Of a stretch of 22,461 nt of DNA, positions 3,034 to 17,174 are shown one piece after another. Both the position numbers and the translations under genes were made by a program. Origin of the DNA: an uncultured Ruminococcus sp. Its GTDB lineage: Bacteria; Bacillota; Clostridia; Oscillospirales; Ruminococcaceae. The notes under the pieces were generated by a model. That model was not told the origin of the DNA and did not search any database. It worked only from the letters and a program-made list of their open reading frames with translations. Positions within the stretch are counted from its first letter, which is position 1. The number at the start of each line of letters is the position of its first letter. The stretch spans positions 1-22,461 of the forward strand of contig CAMHBN010000004.1 in assembly GCA_946183385.1 (NCBI GenBank). Direction: 5' to 3'.

Positions 3034-4620
3034 GTGATCTGTCCGTCATGTGGAACAAATAACGAGAAAGGCTTCAAGTTCTGCGTAAAATGCGGAAGTA
3101 ATCTTGAAAACCCTCAGGAAGTCAATTATGAACAAGTGGATATGGGCGGCTACCATACAGAGGAGGAGTTCTCCTCAGCAAGCAGAGGCTTCACTGTCGG
3201 CAACGGTACGTTTACCATAAACGACAGGGGAGGTTCAGGTTCCTCTTCTTCCGACATCTACACCGCCGACGAGCTCAACGACACAGACGAAGAGTTCGAT
3301 TTCAGTATGTACGAAGAGCCGTTCATCCCGAGGCTCGATTCAGACAGACTTAACCTGCCTCAGGCAGGCAGCGAGCCCTTACAGGCTCAGCAGCAGGGCT
3401 ACGGTCAGCCGCCGCAGATGATGGGCGGTATGCCTCAGCAGGGCGCTATGGGTGCTAACCCGTATATGAACCCGCAGCAGATGATGTACGGTCAGCCACA
3501 GATAATAGGCTATGACCCCAACGGTATGCCCGTATATTCGCAGGCTCCGCCGATGATGTACGGTCAGCCGCAGATAATAGGCTACGACCAGAACGGTATG
3601 CCCGTATATTCACAGGCTCCGCCGATAATGTACGGTCAGCCGCAAATAATAGGCTACGACCAGAACGGTATGCCCGTGTATTCGCAGGCTCCGCCGATAA
3701 TATACGGTCAGCCGCAGATAGTCGGCTATGACCCCAACGGTATGCCGATATATGCTCAGCCCGCTCCGATACCCGTTCAGGCGGCTCCCGAGCAGCAGAC
3801 GGCTCAGCAGGGCGGAGGTATGCAGGGTATGCCCGCTATGCCTCAGAGCCCGCAGGGTGGTGGTATGCAAGGTATGCCTGCTATGCAGGGAATGCCTTCA
3901 ATGCCGCAGCAGGGCGGCGGTATGCCCGCTATGCAGGGTATGCCTTCGATGCCGCAGCAGGGCGCCAACAGTATGTACGGTATGCCAGCACTTCCGAAGG
4001 CTCCCGCCAAGCAGGAGCAGGAGGAGCTCGTTGATGTGTCCGAGGACTTCTGGAAGTTCTTCGACGGCGGCTCGGCTACCAAGCACAGAGAGAGCAACCC
4101 CGAGGACTTCTTCGGAAAGTCGCACGGTATGGGCGACCTCGGCGGTATGCGTCAGAACGATAAGAAGAAAAACAGCTATATGAGCGATACTCCCATCGTT
4201 GACGGCGGTAAGCTCGCTCACAATGAAGTTGATAAATTCAACAAGTTCTATATGCGCAATACCGATACCGTGAATGCGGAAGACCTCGCCGAGAATACAC
4301 ACGTCAAGGCTCAGGACCGTATGGGCGTGACCCGGCAGGTCGATGCCGACAGGCTCTCGGAGAAGCTGACGGGCAAGTCGCGTATAACCATGTATACCGC
4401 GGGCGAAGCAAATGCGGATACCCTCGAGGCTTATGTGCCCGAGCGTCAGGAGTCGATGATGAACGAGGACCTGAGCGCGGTGGAGGCTCTTCCCAAGAAG
4501 AAGAACCCCTACGAGAGCGAGCTCGACAAGATTGAGCTCCCCGAGTATATGCAGGCTAAGAAAACTGTGCGTGAGGAGACGATAGAGATACCGTCGCTCC
4601 CGCAGATGGGTACAGATTAA
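3034..4620 (+). CDS. Zinc-ribbon protein with tandem Pro/Gln/Tyr-rich repeats, function unknown
   Basis: A 528-residue protein. The N-terminal zinc ribbon is C3-x2-C6 ... C17-x2-C20. An acidic Ser-rich stretch follows, then four tandem 24-residue repeats (about 150-245; each begins M/I-M/I-Y-G-Q-P-Q-I and contains G-Y-D-x-N-G-M-P). Next is a Gly/Met/Pro/Gln-rich segment (to about 326) and a charged C-terminal third (about 327-528) with D-F-W-K-F-F and N-P-E-D-F-F motifs. There is no signal peptide or membrane helix. The start is GTG at 3034, with AGGAG at 3021-3025 spaced 8 nt; upstream in-frame codons (to 2947) have no ribosome site. It probably shares a transcript with mscL, 55 nt downstream. 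The composition suggests a disordered, possibly condensate-forming or scaffold protein; this is inference, and no homologous function is known to me. Confidence 0.82.
   Translation: MICPSCGTNNEKGFKFCVKCGSNLENPQEVNYEQVDMGGYHTEEEFSSASRGFTVGNGTFTINDRGGSGSSSSDIYTADELNDTDEEFDFSMYEEPFIPRLDSDRLNLPQAGSEPLQAQQQGYGQPPQMMGGMPQQGAMGANPYMNPQQMMYGQPQIIGYDPNGMPVYSQAPPMMYGQPQIIGYDQNGMPVYSQAPPIMYGQPQIIGYDQNGMPVYSQAPPIIYGQPQIVGYDPNGMPIYAQPAPIPVQAAPEQQTAQQGGGMQGMPAMPQSPQGGGMQGMPAMQGMPSMPQQGGGMPAMQGMPSMPQQGANSMYGMPALPKAPAKQEQEELVDVSEDFWKFFDGGSATKHRESNPEDFFGKSHGMGDLGGMRQNDKKKNSYMSDTPIVDGGKLAHNEVDKFNKFYMRNTDTVNAEDLAENTHVKAQDRMGVTRQVDADRLSEKLTGKSRITMYTAGEANADTLEAYVPERQESMMNEDLSAVEALPKKKNPYESELDKIELPEYMQAKKTVREETIEIPSLPQMGTD
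3481..3768 (+). repeat. Four tandem 72-bp repeats within a coding region
   Basis: Four in-frame copies with an exact 72-bp period start at 3481, 3553, 3625 and 3697. The three central junctions are almost identical at DNA level, and the last copy is most diverged at its 3' end. They encode the 24-residue repeats of the zinc-ribbon protein, and the exact period makes copy-number slippage likely. Confidence 0.92.
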
Positions 4621-4675
4621 AAGGAGCTGTCGTAAGGCAGTCCCTTAAAATATATCATAAAGGAGAAGTATTAAA

Positions 4676-5110
4676 TTGAAGAAGTTTATCCAGGAATTCA
4701 AGGAATTCGCACTCAAGGGCAATGTAATGGACATGGCTGTCGGTGTTATCATCGGTGCCGCTTTCGGTAACATCGTTTCCGCGCTCACCGACGATTTCAT
4801 CAACCCCCTCATCGCTTCCATCGGCGGCGCTGAGATCGCGGGCAAGATAAAGCTCCCGTGGGTTGATTACACAGGACTCGATTCCGAGGCTATCACCGCG
4901 CTCTGCCTCAACTACGGTCATTTCATCACGACTGTTATCAACTTCCTTATCATGGCATTCTGCATTTTCCTCATGGTAAAGGCTGTTAACAAGCTCATGA
5001 GCATCGGCAAGAAGAAGGAAGAAGAGAAGCCCGCTGAGCCTCCGAAGGAGGAAGTTCTCCTCACAGAGATCAGAGATCTCCTCAAGGAGCAGAACGCTAA
5101 GAAGAACTAA
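4676..5110 (+). CDS. mscL: Large-conductance mechanosensitive channel MscL
   Basis: A 144-residue protein with the MscL plan. An amphipathic N-terminal helix (KKFIQEFKEFALKG) is followed by TM1 with N-V-M-D-M-A-V-G-V-I-I-G-A-A-F (about 16-46), an extracellular loop (47-80), TM2 (about 81-106), a Lys/Glu linker and a C-terminal bundle helix (E-E-V-L-L-T-E-I-R-D-L-L, about 125-138). It is a homopentameric pore that opens under membrane tension to release solutes on hypo-osmotic shock. The start is TTG at 4676 with AGGAG at 4661-4665; no in-frame ATG lies near the ribosome site. Length is normal for the family. No separate promoter is obvious in the 55-nt gap after the zinc-ribbon gene, so cotranscription is likely. 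A terminator follows. Confidence 0.97.
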   Translation: MKKFIQEFKEFALKGNVMDMAVGVIIGAAFGNIVSALTDDFINPLIASIGGAEIAGKIKLPWVDYTGLDSEAITALCLNYGHFITTVINFLIMAFCIFLMVKAVNKLMSIGKKKEEEKPAEPPKEEVLLTEIRDLLKEQNAKKN

Positions 5111-5133
5111 GCGGATACATATAACGTAAAGAG

Positions 5134-5164
5134 AAGGCTGTTCCCGTGTGGAACAGCCTTTTTA
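5134..5164 (+). terminator. Rho-independent terminator after mscL
   Basis: A perfect 10-bp stem, AAGGCTGTTC / GAACAGCCTT, with a 7-nt loop, followed directly by TTTTT. It ends the transcript 24 nt after the mscL stop. Confidence 0.93.
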
Positions 5165-5194
5165 CACAGTTTCGCTTTTTCGAGCTTTTTTCTG

Positions 5195-5223
5195 TTGACA
5201 AGTTAATTGTTCTACTGTATAAT
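5195..5223 (+). promoter_or_regulatory. Perfect consensus sigma-A promoter
   Basis: TTGACA (5195-5200), an exact 17-nt spacer, and TATAAT (5218-5223): every hexamer base matches consensus. It lies about 45 nt ahead of the start of the second zinc-ribbon gene, so that gene should be strongly and constitutively expressed unless repressed. Confidence 0.92.
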
Positions 5224-5268
5224 AAGTGTTAGATATACCGATATGTGGTACATAAGGAGGTAAAAAGT

Positions 5269-6954
5269 ATGAAATGTTTATCATGCGGCTTTGAGCTTGA
5301 CGATGACGCCGTTTTTTGCAGTCAGTGCGGCAAGAAGATAGAACTTCCCGCTAAGGAGCTCGCCGAGGAGGTAACGGATTCCGTTTCCGAGGCTGTTTCC
5401 GACGTGAAGGAGGACTTCGCAGAGGTCGTGTCCGAGCCTGTTGAAGCTGTTGAAAAGTTCGCTGACAAGGCTGAGGATAAGATAGAGTCTGCGCTTGACG
5501 ATATCAAGGACAGCTTCACGGACAAGCCCGTTTCCGATGCCGTTTTCAATGACTCCAACGACACCGTCGCCGCTATCGACGAGGTGCTCGAGGCTCTCAA
5601 TTCTCAGCCCGAGGCTGCGGAGAATGCTGTCGAGGCTGCCGCTGAGGATATAAAGGAAAAGGCGGAGAGCTTCACCGATAATATCAAGGATAAGGCTGAG
5701 GAAGCCGTTTCCGATGCGAAGTGGAAGGCTGACAAGGTCGCTTCCGATGTCAAGGATAAGGTCGAAGAAGTAAAGGACAAGGTCGAGGAGGTAAAGGAGG
5801 AGATCGCTCCCGAGCCTGCCCCCGAGGTAAAGCCGCTCAAAAAGCGCGAGAAGCCGCAGTATGAGGCTCCTGTGGAGAATGTCGCGGCTGCTTCCGCTGC
5901 TCCGCTGTACGCGCAGAGCGAGATAGGCGGCAGTGCTCCGCAGCAGGGGACTGCTCCGCAGTATTCGCAGCAGCAGTATGCTCCCTACAACGATCAGTTC
6001 CAGCCGTCGCTTCCCGAGGAGGACGAGCCTGAGGCTCCCGCAAAGGTGGGCGCTCTGCGTATATCGTTCGCGGGCTTCATTGCGATACTTACGATAATCT
6101 TCCTCACGCTCGTGAGCCTGCTGTTCTGCCTGAGACTCGGCGCTTCGGGTGATGTGCTCAAAAAGCGTACCGAAAAAATGAACATCAATACTGTCCTCGA
6201 CGCAGACCTCGGCGAGCGCTCGCTCTCCGATGCGATATACAACGAGGCGGGCTTCGGCTCTGCTACGGAGGGTCAGATCAGCAAGTCTGATTTCAGAGCT
6301 TACCTCGCAAAGACGAATCTGCTCCAGTATACGGGCGCTTTCGTCAAGGACTATGCCGACTACTTCATTGAGGGCGATATCGCCGATCCGTCCGTAGATG
6401 CGAACGATATGGCTGATTTCTTCGTCCAGAACTCCGATGTAGCCGATGAGTGCTTCGACTATCAGCTCCGGACCGCTGATTACAATAAGATCCGCACAAA
6501 GCTTGAGCTCAAGGACACCGCTGATAACTTCTCCATCGAGAAGTGGAGCAAAAAGGCTCACTTTGACCTCGCTAACCTCAACTTTGTGTTCTCGTATGTG
6601 ACACTCGGAATCATTCTCGGTCTTGTCATCGTGCTGCTCGTCTGGATAGCGGTCATCGTTGACGGCAGAGGCAAGCACATCGTCGGTATGTACGGCAGCA
6701 TTTTCTCGTGCAGCGGCGGTATCGTATTCATCGTGGGACTCGCAGCGGTCGCAGGTACGGCTATCGCTCACATCGTTACAGGCTGGTTCATCTTCTACCT
6801 CTGCGCGGCTCTGCTCCTGCCGTCCGGTGCTCTTGCACTCGGCGTGGGCGCGGTAGAGCTCCTGCTCGGATTCATATTCAAGCGCATCAGACGCGGTATC
6901 AAGAATTCCGACAAGAGGAACAAGGCTGTTGAAAAGGCTCTTATGGGCGTGTGA
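5269..6954 (+). CDS. Zinc-ribbon membrane protein with long charged helical region, function unknown
   Basis: A 561-residue protein. The N-terminal zinc ribbon C3-x2-C6 ... C17-x2-C20 has the same spacing as the ribbon in the protein starting at 3034. Residues about 25-195 are Lys/Glu/Ala/Val/Asp-rich, with repeating K-x-E-E-V and D-x-K-D-K-x-E units like the amphipathic repeats of LEA or apolipoprotein-type helices. A Pro/Gln linker follows (about 196-262), then TM1 (about 265-290), a soluble domain of about 145 residues, TM2 (about 440-465), and two further hydrophobic segments (about 474-503 and 506-535) before a basic C-terminus. The start is ATG 5269, with AAGGAGG at 5254-5260; the GTG at 5245 lacks a ribosome site. 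It is a single gene between a consensus promoter and a strong terminator. The family is not recognised; an envelope role is inferred from the topology. Confidence 0.85.
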   Translation: MKCLSCGFELDDDAVFCSQCGKKIELPAKELAEEVTDSVSEAVSDVKEDFAEVVSEPVEAVEKFADKAEDKIESALDDIKDSFTDKPVSDAVFNDSNDTVAAIDEVLEALNSQPEAAENAVEAAAEDIKEKAESFTDNIKDKAEEAVSDAKWKADKVASDVKDKVEEVKDKVEEVKEEIAPEPAPEVKPLKKREKPQYEAPVENVAAASAAPLYAQSEIGGSAPQQGTAPQYSQQQYAPYNDQFQPSLPEEDEPEAPAKVGALRISFAGFIAILTIIFLTLVSLLFCLRLGASGDVLKKRTEKMNINTVLDADLGERSLSDAIYNEAGFGSATEGQISKSDFRAYLAKTNLLQYTGAFVKDYADYFIEGDIADPSVDANDMADFFVQNSDVADECFDYQLRTADYNKIRTKLELKDTADNFSIEKWSKKAHFDLANLNFVFSYVTLGIILGLVIVLLVWIAVIVDGRGKHIVGMYGSIFSCSGGIVFIVGLAAVAGTAIAHIVTGWFIFYLCAALLLPSGALALGVGAVELLLGFIFKRIRRGIKNSDKRNKAVEKALMGV

Positions 6955-9964: not shown

Positions 9965-10375
9965 TTATTTAAAGTGCTTCTGCGATATTTTCAGACGGTT
10001 CATCGCGCGGTTCAGTGCTGCCTGCGTCTCGTAGTACTCGCGTATGCTCTGCTTTTGGCGCATCTGCTCCTCCGCACGCTCGCGAGCCTCCTCGGCGCGC
10101 TTGATGTCTATCTCCTCGGGCAGCTCGCACGAATCCGCAAGTATTACCGCCCTGTCGGGCATTATCTGTATGAAGCCCTCGGATATAGCGGCATAGTGCC
10201 ACTCGCCGTCTATCATATATTTCAGCTCGCCCGTCGGGAGCGCCGTTACGAGCGGTTCGTGTCCCGGAAGTATTCCGAGAAGTCCGTCTATCGCGGTTAT
10301 GACAAGGTGCTCGACATCGCCCTTGAAGAATACTCTGTCCGTGGCGATTATCTCAAGGTAGAACGTCTTTGCCAT
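9965..10375 (-). CDS. atpC: ATP synthase F1 epsilon subunit
   Basis: A 136-residue epsilon subunit. The N-terminal beta-sandwich holds the conserved A-x-D-G-x-L-G-I-L-P-G-H-E-P-L block (about 28-42) and the C-terminal two-helix domain has the R-A-E-E-A-R-E-R-A-E segment (about 92-103). It sits on the central stalk with gamma, contacts the c-ring, and its C-terminal helices can inhibit ATP hydrolysis. It is the last gene of the atp operon; its ATG is 4 nt after the beta stop. No U-rich terminator follows. The GC hairpin of the repeat at 9910-9939 is the first structure downstream and may form the 3' end. Confidence 0.96.
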   Translation of the reverse strand: MAKTFYLEIIATDRVFFKGDVEHLVITAIDGLLGILPGHEPLVTALPTGELKYMIDGEWHYAAISEGFIQIMPDRAVILADSCELPEEIDIKRAEEARERAEEQMRQKQSIREYYETQAALNRAMNRLKISQKHFK

Positions 10376-10379
10376 GTAC

Positions 10380-11981
<1,602 letters not shown>

Positions 11982-12890
11982 TTATTTGTTGAGTGAAGCC
12001 GCGCCGCCGCAGACCTCCGTTATCTCCTGTGTTATAGCCGCCTGACGTGCGCGGTTGTACATCAGTGAGAGGTCGTGTATCATTTCTTTGGCGCTGTTCG
12101 TGGCTGCGTCCATTGCCGTCATTCGCGAGTGCTGCTCGCAGCAGAATGCCTCGACCATTGCTCCGTAGATGATGCCCTTCGCGTAGTTCGGGATAAGGTA
12201 CTCCATTACCTTTTCGGGCGACGGCAGGAATGCCGCCTTCGGGAGCTTCTTCATCGTGCCGTCGGGAGCCTTGCCGAAATGCCTTCTCTCGAACGGCAGC
12301 AGGCGCACCGTGCGGGTCTCCTGCAGATTCGAGTTTATCATGTCCGTGTATAGCACGTATACCTCGTCGAGCTCGTGCTGTTCAAACTTGTCTATCACGC
12401 GCTCGGCTATTTCCTTGGCACGGTAGAGAGTCGGGTTCTGCGTGGTGTACAGGAACTCGCCGTCAACTGCGGCATTTCCGCCCGAATTCATGCGGCGCTG
12501 GAAGTACATACGTCCCACCTGTCCGATGACGAAGAGGTAGCAGTTGTCGATGTCGGGAGCCTCCGCGATGGTCTGCTCCGCGTATTTGAGGATATTGTGG
12601 TTGTAGCTTCCGCACAGTCCCTTGTCCGCCGTTATGACGATATAGCCCTTTTTGCGCTTTTCGTCGGGTATGTCCGAGCGCCTGTCGAAGAAGAGCTGGC
12701 GGGTGTGCGGTGTGTGCTCGAGCACGCTCTCGATGGTCTCCTGCAGTTTATAGAAGTAGGGCTCGGTGGAATCGAGCGCCGTTCTCGCCTTTTTCAGCTT
12801 TGACGAGGATATGAGATACATCGCGTTGGTTATTTTCAGTATCTGCTGTATGCTCGCTATCCTCTCGCGTATCTCTCTGATATTGGGCAT
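11982..12890 (-). CDS. atpG: ATP synthase F1 gamma subunit (rotor shaft)
   Basis: A 302-residue gamma subunit, slightly longer than the usual 285-290. The N-terminal helix has R-E-I-R-E-R-I-A-S-I-Q-Q-I-L-K-I-T-N-A-M and the C-terminal helix has N-S-A-K-E-M-I-H-D-L-S-L-M-Y-N-R-A-R-Q-A-A-I-T-Q-E-I-T-E; the two form the coiled-coil shaft. The D-K-G-L-C-G-S-Y-N motif (about 89-97) is also conserved. It rotates inside alpha3beta3 and couples c-ring rotation to catalysis. It starts 11 nt after the alpha stop, behind GGGGTGAG. The gene downstream (atpD) is separated by inserted repeats. Confidence 0.97.
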   Translation of the reverse strand: MPNIREIRERIASIQQILKITNAMYLISSSKLKKARTALDSTEPYFYKLQETIESVLEHTPHTRQLFFDRRSDIPDEKRKKGYIVITADKGLCGSYNHNILKYAEQTIAEAPDIDNCYLFVIGQVGRMYFQRRMNSGGNAAVDGEFLYTTQNPTLYRAKEIAERVIDKFEQHELDEVYVLYTDMINSNLQETRTVRLLPFERRHFGKAPDGTMKKLPKAAFLPSPEKVMEYLIPNYAKGIIYGAMVEAFCCEQHSRMTAMDAATNSAKEMIHDLSLMYNRARQAAITQEITEVCGGAASLNK

Positions 12891-12901
12891 AAGCTCACCC
12901 C

Positions 12902-14926
12902 TTACTCCTCGAACGCGGTAACGATGCGCTCGATACGCTCGCCGAGGTCGTCGGTCATGACCTTGTTCTCCTCGATCTCGGAGATGATGTCCTGTCCGTA
13001 GGACTCGATGTACGTCATAAGGTCGTTTACGTAGTCCTTCAGCTCCGAGAGCGGCGTGTACTCGAACAGCCCGTGCTGAGCCGCGTACAGCAGTATTACC
13101 TGCTTATAGTGGGGCATGGGGTTGTAGAGCGGCTGCTTCAGGAGCTCCGTGAGCATACGTCCGTGGGCGAGGAGCTCTGCCGTGGATTGGTCGAGCTCGG
13201 ACGAGAACTGCGTGAATATCTCCATTTCCTTGAACTGGGCAAGGTCGATACGGAGATTTCCCGCCGCCTTCTTCATAGCCTTGGTCTGAGCCGCACCGCC
13301 GACACGCGATACGGAAAGTCCGTAGTTTACGGCGGGGCGCTGTCCCGAATTGAACAGCTCGCTCTCGAGGAATATCTGTCCGTCGGTGATGGATATTACA
13401 TTTGTCGGGATATATGCCGAGATATCGCCCGCGAGAGTCTCGATTATCGGGAGCGCGGTCAGCGAGCCGCCGCCGTGCTCGTCGTCAAGGCGGCTCGAGC
13501 GCTCGAGCAGTCTCGAATGGAGGTAGAATACGTCGCCGGGGTAGGCTTCACGTCCGGGCGGACGGTGCAGCAGCAGCGACATTGCGCGGTATGCTACGGC
13601 GTGCTTGGAGAGGTCGTCGTACACGATGAGGACGTCCTTGCCCTTCGACATGAAGTATTCAGCCATAGCTGTGCCCGAATAGGGGGCGATATACTGGAAG
13701 GGAGCCTGATCGCTCGCAGAGGCGCAGACTACGACCGTATACGGCATAGCTCCGAACTTCTTGAGCATATTCACCACCTGCGCCACAGTCGAGGACTTCT
13801 GTCCGATGGCGACGTATACGCAGATGACGTCCTTGCCCTTCTGATTGATTATGGTATCAATGGCGATAGAGGTCTTACCTGTCTGTCTGTCGCCGATTAT
13901 CAGCTCACGCTGACCTCTGCCTATCGGGAACATAGAGTCGATGGCGAGGATACCCGTCTGGAGCGGCACGCTTACGGGCTTTCGCTCGATAACGCCCGGA
14001 GCTTCGCGCTCTATCGGGAAGTAATCGTCCGCGCGGATAGGTCCGAGACCGTCGATAGGAGCTCCGAGAGCGTCAACTACTCTGCCGAGCAGCTCGTCGC
14101 TCACGCCTATACCTGCCCTCTTGCCTGTGCGGACTACGGTCGAGCCCTCGGAAAGTCCCGAATCGTCGCCGAGAAGTACGACTCCGACCGACTTTTCCTC
14201 GAGGTTCTGCACGATGCCGCGTATGCCCGTCTCGAACTCGACGAGCTCGCCGTACATAACGCCGCTCATGCCGTATACCGTGGCGATACCGTCGCCGAGC
14301 CTTGTTACGTAGCCCGTCTCGGTCGCGCCGTTCCTGACCTCGAAGTCCCTGACCTCGGTCTTGAGCACGGAGATGATGTCGCCCGAGGTGAGCTTCTCCT
14401 TGCCGCTCTCGGCTACCTCTGCCGCCTTGGTCTGCATCAAGTCGCGCATTGCGCGGAGGCTCGTGCGGTAGCTGCGGTCGTACTCGACGTCGCCCGCATT
14501 GAGGATGAAGCCGCCGATGATGTCGGGGTCTTTTCGGTATTCTATGTCAACGTCGTCCTTAACGAATTTCTCCATTATGAACTTGCGCAGGTCAGCCTGC
14601 TGAGGCTCCGTAAGCGGCGTAACATAGCGCACTATAGCCTTTATGCTGCCCTGCTTTTCGAGGAGTATCTCCTCGTATTCGGCGAATATCTCGCCGAGCT
14701 CGCCTATCGCGCCGTCCCTGACTGCCGTGGACATGAAGCGTTCGAGGCTCGCGGGGAAGAGCTGCTTGATGATATTGTGTTTCTCGTCGTAAGTAACGAG
14801 AGGGTTAGAGAGCGTATCCGCGACGTCGGGACAGGTCTCGATGACCGTCCTTGCGGCGTTGATGTCCTCGCGCTGTATGTCGAGGCGGACAAGCTCCTTC
14901 ACAAGAGCCTTATCGGTATCCTTCAT
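12902..14926 (-). CDS. atpHA: Fused ATP synthase delta-alpha subunit polypeptide
   Basis: One uninterrupted 674-residue frame encodes both subunits. Residues 1 to about 170 are delta: a divergent helical domain, N-P-L-V-T-Y-D-E-K (about 41-49), and the family signature [18 protein letters not shown] (about 133-150). From about 178 onward it is a full alpha: [14 protein letters not shown] (about 203-216), Walker A G345-D-R-Q-T-G-K-T352, [14 protein letters not shown] (about 530-543) with the arginine finger. The junction (near 14385-14425) has no stop, and no start with a ribosome site; in-frame ATGs at 14449 and 14437 lack one. The start is ATG 14926, overlapping the atpF stop as TGATG; GTG 14929 is an in-frame alternative. 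Normal F1 has one delta and three alpha. Confidence 0.93.
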
Positions 14927-15414
14927 CACCTGTCACCCTCCCTCTCGGAAAGGAACTCATCGACAAGCTTCCTGTTCTTTTCGTCGTCAAGGTTCGCGCC
15001 GACTACCTTTGAAGCCGCCTCGATAGCGAGATCCGCTATCTGCGACTGTGCCTGCTGGAGCACGCGTCTGCGCTCGTTCTCGATGGTCTCGCTCGCGGCG
15101 CTGACTATTTCGTCAGCTTCCTCGTGCGATTTCTGTATGATATTCGAGCGCTCGGTCTCGGCGTCATCGTGAGCCTTCATTATGATACGGCTCGCCTCTT
15201 CCTTAGCCTCGCTGATAGTGTCCGAATACTGCTGGCGGAGCGTCTCTGCCTCCTGCTTTGCCTTCTCGGCGTCGTCGATGTCCTTCTGTATCGACTGCGT
15301 CCTCTCGTTCATCGCCTTTCTGACGGGCTTGAAGAGGAATATCCTGAGCAGTATGAAGAGTATGAGGACGTTTGCGACTGCCTCAAAAATGCTCCAGAAT
15401 TCAAATTTAAGCAT
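14926..15414 (-). CDS. atpF: ATP synthase Fo b subunit (peripheral stalk)
   Basis: A 162-residue b subunit. One N-terminal TM (about 7-28, with [10 protein letters not shown]) is followed by [11 protein letters not shown] and a long charged helix rich in Ala/Glu/Lys, with no Pro until the end. Two copies form the stator that holds delta-alpha against the rotating ring. The start is ATG 15414 with AAGGAGG spaced 7 nt. It overlaps the start of the fused delta-alpha gene, so stator and F1 head are translationally coupled. There is no b' gene and no b-delta fusion of the actinobacterial kind. Confidence 0.96.
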
Positions 15415-15450: not shown

Positions 15451-15678
15451 TTACTTGCTTCCGAGCATGATTATGATAAGGAGCGCTATAACGAAGCCGT
15501 ATACAGCGGTAGCCTCTGCGAGCGCACAGCCGATGATGAGTGATGTTCTTATGTCGCCCTTAGCCTCGGGCTGACGGGCAATGCTCTCGGTAGCCTTGGC
15601 TGTTGCGATCCCTATACCTATACCTGCGCCAATTCCCGTGAGTACGGCTACAGCGGCGCCCAGTGCGATGATTCCCAT
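15451..15678 (-). CDS. atpE: ATP synthase Fo c subunit, second tandem copy
   Basis: A 75-residue hairpin proteolipid of two TMs joined by the polar loop R35-Q-P-E-A-K-G-D. The ion-binding acid is E55 (A-L-A-E-A-T-A-V-Y-G). The protein is identical residue for residue to the copy at 15698-15925, while the DNA differs at about ten silent positions, all in the 5' half of the gene. The Na+ ligands known from Ilyobacter c subunits (Gln in helix 1, Ser after the Glu) are replaced by Ile and Ala, so proton coupling is predicted. GGAGGT precedes the ATG. It lies 19 nt after the first copy. Confidence 0.96.
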   Translation of the reverse strand: MGIIALGAAVAVLTGIGAGIGIGIATAKATESIARQPEAKGDIRTSLIIGCALAEATAVYGFVIALLIIIMLGSK

Positions 15679-15697: not shown

Positions 15698-15925
15698 TTA
15701 CTTGCTTCCGAGCATGATTATGATAAGGAGCGCTATAACGAAGCCGTATACAGCGGTAGCCTCTGCGAGCGCACAGCCGATGATGAGCGATGTTCTTATG
15801 TCGCCCTTAGCCTCGGGCTGACGGGCTATGCTCTCGGTAGCCTTTGCCGTTGCGATTCCTATACCAATACCTGCGCCAATGCCCGTAAGTACGGCAACAG
15901 CGGCGCCCAATGCGATGATTCCCAT
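15698..15925 (-). CDS. atpE: ATP synthase Fo c subunit, first tandem copy
   Basis: A 75-residue c subunit, first to be translated of the pair. G-rich helix 1 (G-I-G-A-G-I-G-I-G-I-A, about 15-25) packs the rotor ring; R35-Q-P is the loop that contacts gamma/epsilon; E55 carries the ion. Eight to seventeen copies form the ring in known enzymes. The ATG is 5 nt after the atpB stop, with GGAGGT spaced 7-8 nt. A second gene for the same protein raises c output relative to a and b, which fits the need for many copies per complex. Confidence 0.97.
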   Translation of the reverse strand: MGIIALGAAVAVLTGIGAGIGIGIATAKATESIARQPEAKGDIRTSLIIGCALAEATAVYGFVIALLIIIMLGSK

Positions 15926-15930
15926 ATTAT

Positions 15931-16671
15931 TTACCTCCGTGAAGTTGCGGCTTTTTTAGCCTTTTTCAGTTTCTTTCCGCCGTGTTCCTCTTCCTCCATT
16001 GCCTCTGTCATGTACAGCGTGGTGAGGAATACGAATATGTAAGCCTGGAGCAGTCCGTCGAATATGTCGAAGTAGGCGCTGAATATAACAGGTACACCTA
16101 TCGCGGGGACTCCTATGACAGTCGTGAATGCAAGCTTTATCAGCTCCATTACTACGAACGCGCCGAGCACGTTTCCGAAAAGTCGCATACACAGCGACAG
16201 CGGGCGCGTGATGAGGTCGAGCACATTTATCGGGTTGAGGAAGCTCTTCAGCCATTTCAGCGGTCCCTTCTCGATGATGAAGGCGAGCTGTACGAATATG
16301 ATGGCTATTCCCGCAAGTGCCGCCGTGACGTTGATGTCCTTCGTCGGCGGTACGAAGCCGAACAAGCCCATGAGGTTCGCAAAGGCTATGTAGATTATCA
16401 GCGTTTCGAGGAAGGAAAGGTACTTTTTCCCCTTTTCTCCGAGTATGTCGAGGAAGAGCTTATCCAGCCAGCCCACGATTCCCTCGATTATGCACTGCCT
16501 GCCCGTGGGCACCTTTTTCAGCCCGTGGGTGAATATTATCGACAGCAGTACGACCACTGCCATTATTATCCATGTTACCACGCACGATTCGGCGATGGGT
16601 ATGTCCAAGCCGAACAGGTGTATCGTAAAGGCGGTGTGGTTTTCGAGCCCTTCCATCAGCTCTTCTGCCAT
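15931..16671 (-). CDS. atpB: ATP synthase Fo a subunit
   Basis: A 246-residue a subunit with five to six membrane helices. The essential arginine is R163 in P-L-S-L-C-M-R-L-F-G-N-V-L-G; F-A-N-L-M-G-L-F-G-F-V-P-P (about 97-109) and the final helix with Q-A-Y-I-F-V-F-L-T-T-L-Y (about 209-220) are also conserved. It provides the half-channels through which protons reach the c-ring. The C-terminus is an unusually basic tail (Lys/Arg/Ala-rich, about 231-246). It is the first gene of the operon: neither atpI nor atpZ precedes it. The ribosome site GAGGG is spaced about 8 nt from the ATG. Confidence 0.96.
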   Translation of the reverse strand: MAEELMEGLENHTAFTIHLFGLDIPIAESCVVTWIIMAVVVLLSIIFTHGLKKVPTGRQCIIEGIVGWLDKLFLDILGEKGKKYLSFLETLIIYIAFANLMGLFGFVPPTKDINVTAALAGIAIIFVQLAFIIEKGPLKWLKSFLNPINVLDLITRPLSLCMRLFGNVLGAFVVMELIKLAFTTVIGVPAIGVPVIFSAYFDIFDGLLQAYIFVFLTTLYMTEAMEEEEHGGKKLKKAKKAATSRR

Positions 16672-16835: not shown

Positions 16836-17174
16836 TTAGCCCTCGGTGTCGCCCTGTGCAAGGCTGACTGCCTTGTTCAGGCGTTCAACTGCGCTTGTGT
16901 TGAGCTTGTCCGACAGCCTGAGACGGTCGAGCTCCTTCTTGAAGGCGTCAAGCTCTCCCGCGAGCTTGCGCATGACCTCGGCGTTCTGTATCTGCTTCTC
17001 CTCGAGAGCGCACACTCTCACGATGAGGTCGTTGATATTCGCCGCGAGGACTTCGTTTGCGGCGTTCTGCTTCTCGCCGAAGTCGGTCAGCTTCTCGCCC
17101 GACTTGAGCACCCCGACCTTTTCGTGTCCGTCGAAGGTGTGCATTTTCTCGTTTGTCAGCTTCATATCCGACAT
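16836..17174 (-). CDS. Small coiled-coil protein, function unknown
   Basis: A 112-residue soluble protein with no signal peptide or Cys motif. The N-terminal 40 residues are polar (F-D-G-H-E-K-V-G-V-L-K-S-G-E-K), and the rest has heptad-like spacing of Leu/Ile/Val with many Lys/Glu, which predicts a long coiled coil (about 45-108). The start is ATG 17174 with AGGAG spaced 8 nt. It is the last gene of the nucleotide-sugar operon, 25 nt after rmd. The family is not recognised; an accessory of the glycan pathway is only a guess from position. Confidence 0.75.
   Translation of the reverse strand: MSDMKLTNEKMHTFDGHEKVGVLKSGEKLTDFGEKQNAANEVLAANINDLIVRVCALEEKQIQNAEVMRKLAGELDAFKKELDRLRLSDKLNTSAVERLNKAVSLAQGDTEG

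Follow-up and report, generated by a model that had tools for sequence, protein, structure and literature searches.

The genes of F-type ATP synthases are usually arranged in the order a-c-b-delta-alpha-gamma-beta-epsilon. In the known enzymes, the C-terminal domain of delta is the part that binds the b stalk, and helix 1 of the E. coli delta N-domain helps to bind the N-terminal helix of alpha. V/A-type ATPases have two or three peripheral stalks. PDB 9itj and its fellow entries, which we take to come from Chloroflexus, contain 72 b and 36 a chains in 18 entries, while 6 entries contribute 12 delta and 18 alpha chains; an entry thus averages two a, four b, two delta, and three alpha chains. 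From these averages, we conclude that at least one F-type enzyme of solved structure has more than a single stalk set, and in it delta (157 aa) is not joined to alpha. The E. coli peripheral stalk meets the three alpha N-termini through three different interfaces (PMC5214741).

The closest described system is an engineered Bacillus PS3 FoF1 in which the delta C-domain was fused to alpha, which gave an enzyme with as many as three stalks and three a subunits (Ueno et al. 2025, PMC12229609; PDB 9JC1). Two stalks are reported on average by gel, triple-stalk particles are rare, and the H+/ATP of the engineered enzyme is 5.8 versus 3.0. The number of a subunits coming with the stalks sets the proton-to-ATP ratio (PMC12229609). 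The authors conclude that the delta N-domain restricts the stalks to one, and they list natural N-domain-less delta-alpha genes from Acidaminococcus fermentans and two UniProt entries. Thus, the deltaC-alpha fusion is already in print. A search of the open-licence PMC literature found no description of either full-length delta-alpha fusions, including one conserved in a genus, or b'-deltaC-alpha fusions, and deltaC-deltaC-alpha and b-deltaC proteins were likewise not found in it.

The locus presented here lies in a 22,461-nucleotide stretch from an uncultured Ruminococcus sp., which is hereafter referred to as the window. Its minus strand encodes an F-type operon in the order a, c, c, b, delta-alpha, gamma, beta, epsilon that is otherwise ordinary, and hence the fusion unites two usual neighbours. 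The features of the operon are as follows:

15931..16671, minus strand: atpB, subunit a, present in one copy in the window (PF00119)
15698..15925, minus strand: atpE, subunit c, copy 1 (PF00137)
15451..15678, minus strand: atpE, subunit c, copy 2 (PF00137, TIGR01260)
14926..15414, minus strand: atpF, subunit b, a separate protein of ordinary length, 162 aa (PF00430, TIGR01144)
12902..14926, minus strand: delta-alpha fusion gene, 674 codons plus stop, with its ATG at 14926 and its stop at 12902-12904
14651..14926, minus strand: delta N-terminal domain, residues 1-92 from the ATG (PF00213; six helices in the AlphaFold2 model; helix-1 Y-A-x-A-L signature absent)
14441..14650, minus strand: delta C-terminal domain, residues 93-162 (PF00213; dN/dS 0.09)
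14387..14440, minus strand: linker, residues 163-180, of varying sequence and length in the genus alignment (dN/dS 0.61)
12905..14386, minus strand: complete alpha subunit, including its N-terminal helix and the P-loop GDRQTGKT (TIGR00962, 754.6 bits)
11982..12890, minus strand: atpG, subunit gamma (PF00231, TIGR01146)
10380..11777, minus strand: atpD, subunit beta, likely starting at 11777 in a frame open to 11975 (the TIGR01039 match begins at residue 69 of that frame)
9965..10375, minus strand: atpC, subunit epsilon (PF02823, PF00401)

The 674-codon frame encodes a complete delta and a complete alpha, and no stop codon separates the two parts. An in-frame GTG at 14929, just before the ATG, is an alternative start that overlaps the atpF stop. 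Numbered from this GTG, PF00213 (OSCP/delta) matches residues 16-163 (profile positions 19-170 of 172) with 92.1 bits against a cut-off of 22.3, and TIGR00962 (atpA) matches residues 181-674 with 754.6 bits against a cut-off of 484.45; three alpha/beta Pfam domains (PF02874, PF00006, and PF00306) match the alpha part as well. The alpha part is therefore F-type both by its TIGR00962 score and by its location in an F-type operon, while the delta part belongs to the Delta/OSCP family by PF00213 over both of its domains, except that it shares one frame with alpha rather than forming a separate chain. Frame reading and the two family models thus confirmed the original prediction of a delta and an alpha in one uninterrupted frame, with boundaries (delta to about residue 170, alpha from about 178) that were correct to within a few residues, and it was also right to set the fusion apart from the actinobacterial b-delta arrangement, as the b of the window is a separate 162-aa protein. 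In an AlphaFold2 model, the delta N-domain forms six helices with block pLDDT values of about 70-87; with a mean of 72.9 and poor values in parts of alpha, the model as a whole is modest and was used for secondary structure only. A fold search was uninformative for the delta part, as only residues 199-674 were spanned by at least one fifth of its rows.

Several smaller features of the operon were also recorded. The two atpE copies encode an identical protein and agree at 218/228 bases of DNA, and among 17 genus loci checked, two copies were present in 12, one in 4, and none was found in 1. Palindromic repeats of the type TGTAGGGGCGAACATTGTTCGCCCG lie between atpG and atpD (window 11814-11978), three being recognizable by eye and a repeat tool giving one direct and one inverted pair. 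Directly upstream of atpB is a 112-aa ORF (window 16836-17174, minus strand) whose sole Pfam match is a sub-threshold coiled-coil.

When compared with the described systems, the window protein resembles the engineered PS3 enzyme most closely, as both have the delta C-domain on the alpha N-terminus via a short linker and neither has a separate delta; chain 9jc1_I matches the window protein in one stretch over residues 93-668. Unlike that enzyme, the window protein is natural and retains the delta N-domain. The A. fermentans fusion is likewise a natural gene fusion in an anaerobe, but is without the N-domain (PMC12229609). The actinobacterial b-delta proteins (PDB 7jg5_d, 8j0s_d, and 9vkp_d) also have delta joined to another stator part, though to b rather than to alpha. 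The canonical F-type enzyme of Bacillus PS3 (6n2y) has the same alpha and delta families, whereas in the window these form one chain in which the delta helix-1 signature is lost. The best PDB match of the window's b is the b of the 9itj group.

We then compared selective constraint along the fusion. Using unsaturated pairs only (232-608 of 861, by region), dN/dS within the genus was lowest in the alpha body (0.056), followed by the delta C-domain (0.09), the alpha N-helix (0.12), the delta N-domain (0.23), and the linker (0.61). The delta N-domain is thus under purifying selection, and we rejected the notion that it is dead. As a control, 30 unfused deltas of the order (25 distinct) were obtained with their own alphas from 56 canonical loci. 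At 85-90% alpha identity, unfused pairs had N- and C-domain identities of 0.50 and 0.60 (18 pairs), as compared with 0.53 and 0.83 for fused pairs (371 pairs); N-domain identity was equal at 80-85% alpha identity (0.45 unfused vs 0.46 fused), and at 90-95% the fused N-domain was less alike (0.55 vs 0.71, the latter from 7 unfused pairs). The ratio of C- to N-domain divergence had a median of 0.32 in fused (n=21) vs 0.84 in unfused (n=15) sequence-disjoint pairs, and of 0.30 (n=12) vs 0.80 (n=9) once the disjoint pairs had been matched for alpha identity (p 7e-4). When scaled to alpha, the C-domain was slower (p 0.005) and the N-domain faster (p 0.017) in the matched fused pairs than in the unfused ones, although the N-domain was not faster in every identity band. 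We therefore regard the slowing of the C-domain as firm and the acceleration of the N-domain as less certain. Constraint has moved from the delta N-domain to the C-domain in the fused genus rows. These 42 rows constitute a single clade, and therefore this shift may reflect the history of one lineage rather than an effect of fusion.

Fused and unfused rows also differ in the helix-1 signature Y-[AGSC]-x-[AGS]-[LIVMF], which is present in all unfused relatives examined (30/30 rows, 25 distinct) and in 0/42 fused genus rows. Outside of the genus, it is absent in L081, L086, L220, and L221 but is present in L219, an independent full fusion, and therefore fusion is not always tied to its loss.

Based upon these sequences, we put at about even the chance that each alpha carries its own delta, in a head that likely has three delta arms and on which several stalks may be held. 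An uncut chain would give F1 the composition (delta-alpha)3-beta3-gamma-epsilon, in which every alpha N-terminal helix would bear the C-domain of its own delta as a docking place for a b2 dimer, and the N-domain, retained without its helix-1 signature, would no longer act as a single plug capping the threefold axis. If extra b2 stalks were each accompanied by an a subunit, the enzyme would spend more protons per ATP and could run on a lower proton-motive force, a property suited to a fermenter living in the rumen. The three-delta head is supported by the lack of a second alpha in 51/55 near-complete fused genomes and of a conserved internal start. More than one stalk is further supported by sister lineages having deltaC-alpha genes that lack the N-domain (30/51 order loci), by the engineered deltaC-alpha precedent (PMC12229609), and by the chain counts of the 9itj group. 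A bolder version, which we offer tentatively and with some doubt, would equip each head with three covalently tethered deltas and with as many as three b2 stalks and a subunits, forming a low-gear proton engine for low proton-motive force whose three remodelled N-domains make a symmetric crown rather than one plug and which represents one stage in a repeated clostridial series of stator-to-alpha fusions ending in b'-deltaC-alpha. If the prediction of multiple stalks holds, the enzyme would work in a manner like that of V/A-type ATPases (PMC6131620), with more than one stalk on a head, although the subunits are different and the window proteins are F-type by curated models.

The principal alternative, which we regard as rather unlikely, is that one delta docks while two remain idle, such that the fusion locks delta to alpha for assembly only, with one delta placing its N-domain on the axis as a cap and its C-domain on the sole b2 stalk while the other two arms are left free. 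The retained N-domain, having six predicted helices and a dN/dS of 0.23, both favours this arrangement and is the strongest point against a multi-stalk head, and the conclusion of Ueno et al. regarding the N-domain (PMC12229609) argues in the same direction. A single docked delta would also be consistent with the three different interfaces described for the E. coli stalk (PMC5214741). Retention of the helix-1 signature in L219 points likewise to one docked delta and away from a multi-stalk head; the latter must also contend with an operon having one atpB and one atpF, with N-domain identities that are equal at 80-90% alpha identity, and with fused rows that form one clade. However, the signature is gone in 42/42 fused genus rows, two idle deltas per head would be costly, and two idle copies predict no such tightening as was found in the more constrained C-domain. 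The tightened C-domain and the altered N-domain together suggest that each copy of the C-domain is important and that the N-domain no longer serves as a single plug, and it is for this reason that we favour the multi-stalk head over both one docked delta and cleavage of the chain. The retained N-domain also makes this a useful case, as the Ruminococcus fusion can tell apart two claims that were inseparable in the engineered enzyme, namely that tethering is enough for extra stalks or that N-domain loss is needed as well. As a consequence, the plan of one stalk, one delta, and one a, which has been treated as a fixed rule for F-type enzymes, becomes testable in nature in a cultured genus.

It is considerably less probable that the linker is cut, or that alpha is also made alone, which would give a mature enzyme with the usual one delta and three alpha. 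The variability and weak constraint of the linker (dN/dS 0.61) are what would be expected of an exposed cut site, but a shared cleavage motif was not seen by eye in 30 aligned rows, and cleavage would still leave delta and alpha at 1:1 with two deltas spare. To be made alone, alpha would require either its own start or another gene, both of which the original prediction had allowed for. In a scan of 42 non-redundant genus sequences for internal starts and frameshifts, start codons at residues 80-215 with a ribosome-site-like sequence occurred in at most 4/42, and the stops in other frames near the junction were scattered. As there is no conserved site in these sequences, an internal start and a programmed frameshift were both rejected, and the reading suggested by the sequences is one uncut product. 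In the profile of synonymous sites, the lowest 15-codon window fell at residues 152-166, which was not taken as a hidden signal because it contains only 5 usable columns and alpha-internal windows are nearly as low.

The search for a separate atpA or atpH in the source genome, which is 75% complete and in 334 contigs, found no second PF00213 match and no other F-type alpha, the remaining candidates being beta and a V-type-like pair, and a second alpha was accordingly rejected there. Across the genus, 58/100 genomes are ≥90% complete (contamination unfiltered); 55 of the 58 have the fusion and 3 have a separate alpha only. In 51 of the 55, no alpha other than the fusion exceeds the family cut-off, and in 4 both forms are present, which argues against a general supply of alpha from another gene. 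When all 100 genus genomes are considered, a separate alpha occurs in 11 (extra alpha fragments in G365 and G386, both <90% complete, being left out of this count), of which 4 have it alone and 7 have it alongside the fusion; the latter would favour alpha made alone. These seven genomes (G020, G033, G334, G335, G358, G373, and G377) possibly have two F-type enzymes in one cell.

The fusion itself is a conserved feature of the genus. A fused-length alpha frame (670-699 aa) is present in 88/100 genomes, including the named Ruminococcus flavefaciens strains MC2020, ND2009, 007c, and SAb67, as well as G034, which has a 3.6 Mb contig. Neither a fused nor a separate alpha was found as an intact frame in 8/100, although in two of these, G032 and G035, a fusion is present that is broken or cut off, the latter lying at a contig end. 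When the delta part was used as a database query, 790 proteins among 1350 candidates were returned, and among the 120 matches listed, delta and alpha domains occur together. Fusion proteins in the database bear labels that include 'F0F1 ATP synthase subunit alpha' and 'Multifunctional fusion protein'. Even though the source genome is an incomplete draft, the likelihood that an assembly or sequencing error deleted the stop between two ordinary genes is practically nil given this conservation and the related database proteins, and we conclude that the junction is real rather than the assembly slip that had been considered at the outset.

The search for other delta-alpha fusions in related Clostridia was also productive, yielding both full-length and deltaC-alpha forms. 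We read 51 order-level loci outside of the genus, which were picked for long or divergent alpha frames rather than at random and were classed by eye; L119 and L124 were left unclassed, as their alpha frames were not picked up by the motif filter. The 51 loci comprised 2 full delta-alpha, 30 deltaC-alpha without the delta N-domain, 1 deltaC-deltaC-alpha, 9 b'-deltaC-alpha with a membrane helix at the front, 5 with a free deltaC of about 72 aa, 1 b-deltaC, 1 with no delta found, and 2 canonical. A profile search of 394 order genomes located full delta-alpha frames outside of the genus in at least 5 genomes (G256, G180, G767, G833, and G800), the last of which encodes L219 on a 2.9 Mb contig. The deltaC-alpha front end of L039, used as a protein query, returned at least 8 proteins among 54 candidates in a search limited by a word filter. 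A class-wide search for delta ranked canonical deltas at the top, with fusions falling outside of the matches listed.

The b'-deltaC-alpha frames (L035, L036, L092, L095, L098, L099, L102, L104, and L110) are 737-784 aa in length with an N-terminal membrane helix, and ATP-synt_B, OSCP, and alpha all exceed the Pfam cut-off in L035 and L036. Where operons were read with their upstream genes (L035, L036, L092, and L104), a separate b gene is found beside the fusion, and the b'-deltaC part as a database query returned 1072 proteins among 3290 candidates. If uncut, such a protein would give each alpha its own membrane anchor, and with b'-deltaC-alpha as its extreme, the wider series suggests that anaerobes have altered the ATP synthase stator several times. 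In L090 (G133, 4544-6565), tandem delta C-domains precede alpha, each being followed by an alpha-N-helix-like stretch, and two OSCP stretches are above the Pfam cut-off. L120 (G315, 6115-6801, minus strand) encodes a 229-aa protein of b plus a delta C-domain without the delta N-domain (ATP-synt_B and OSCP above cut-off), and its alpha is separate. The free deltaC proteins lie between b and alpha (L041, L113, L121, L122, and L125), with OSCP alone above cut-off in that of L041. Two further loci depart from these forms. L105 (G078, alpha frame 4992-6608) is an F-type operon in which delta was not seen and alpha has a short N-terminal extension; a canonical delta is present elsewhere in this genome. 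L218 (G170) has a separate delta of one N-domain and two C-domains in a 261-aa frame on the minus strand, and its alpha is separate.

Three trees were built from alpha alone (L010, L031, and L042 omitted, genus rows thinned by random draw), from alpha and beta with gamma where found (L116 omitted, L192 dropped for having no beta, and gamma found for 38 rows only), and from a later set of hand-picked alpha rows. These trees are concordant on most points. The genus fusion forms one group with a support of 100 in all three, the b'-deltaC-alpha rows form one group (100), and the free-deltaC rows group with two deltaC-alpha rows and the b-deltaC row (99-100). In the alpha tree, 28/30 deltaC-alpha rows group with the full fusions. 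The grouping of the genus fusion, L081, L086, and these 28 rows, as against the unfused L013/L043 and L091, has weak to moderate support (67 in the alpha-alone tree and 84 in the later alpha tree), whereas the joined tree has a group of 42 that includes the unfused L013/L043 and L091 (99). L219 is nested in an otherwise unfused group (100, later alpha tree), and the fused or unfused state requires at least 4 changes on the alpha-alone tree. From these placements, we conclude that fusion to alpha arose several times. Full-length and N-domain-less forms occur together in the main group. In the later alpha tree, for instance, the full-length L081, L220, and L221 lie beside the N-domain-less L085 with a support of 98, and the DNA upstream of L085, L088, and L112 encodes b but no delta N-domain. 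This arrangement fits an order of events in which fusion would have come first and loss of the N-domain later.
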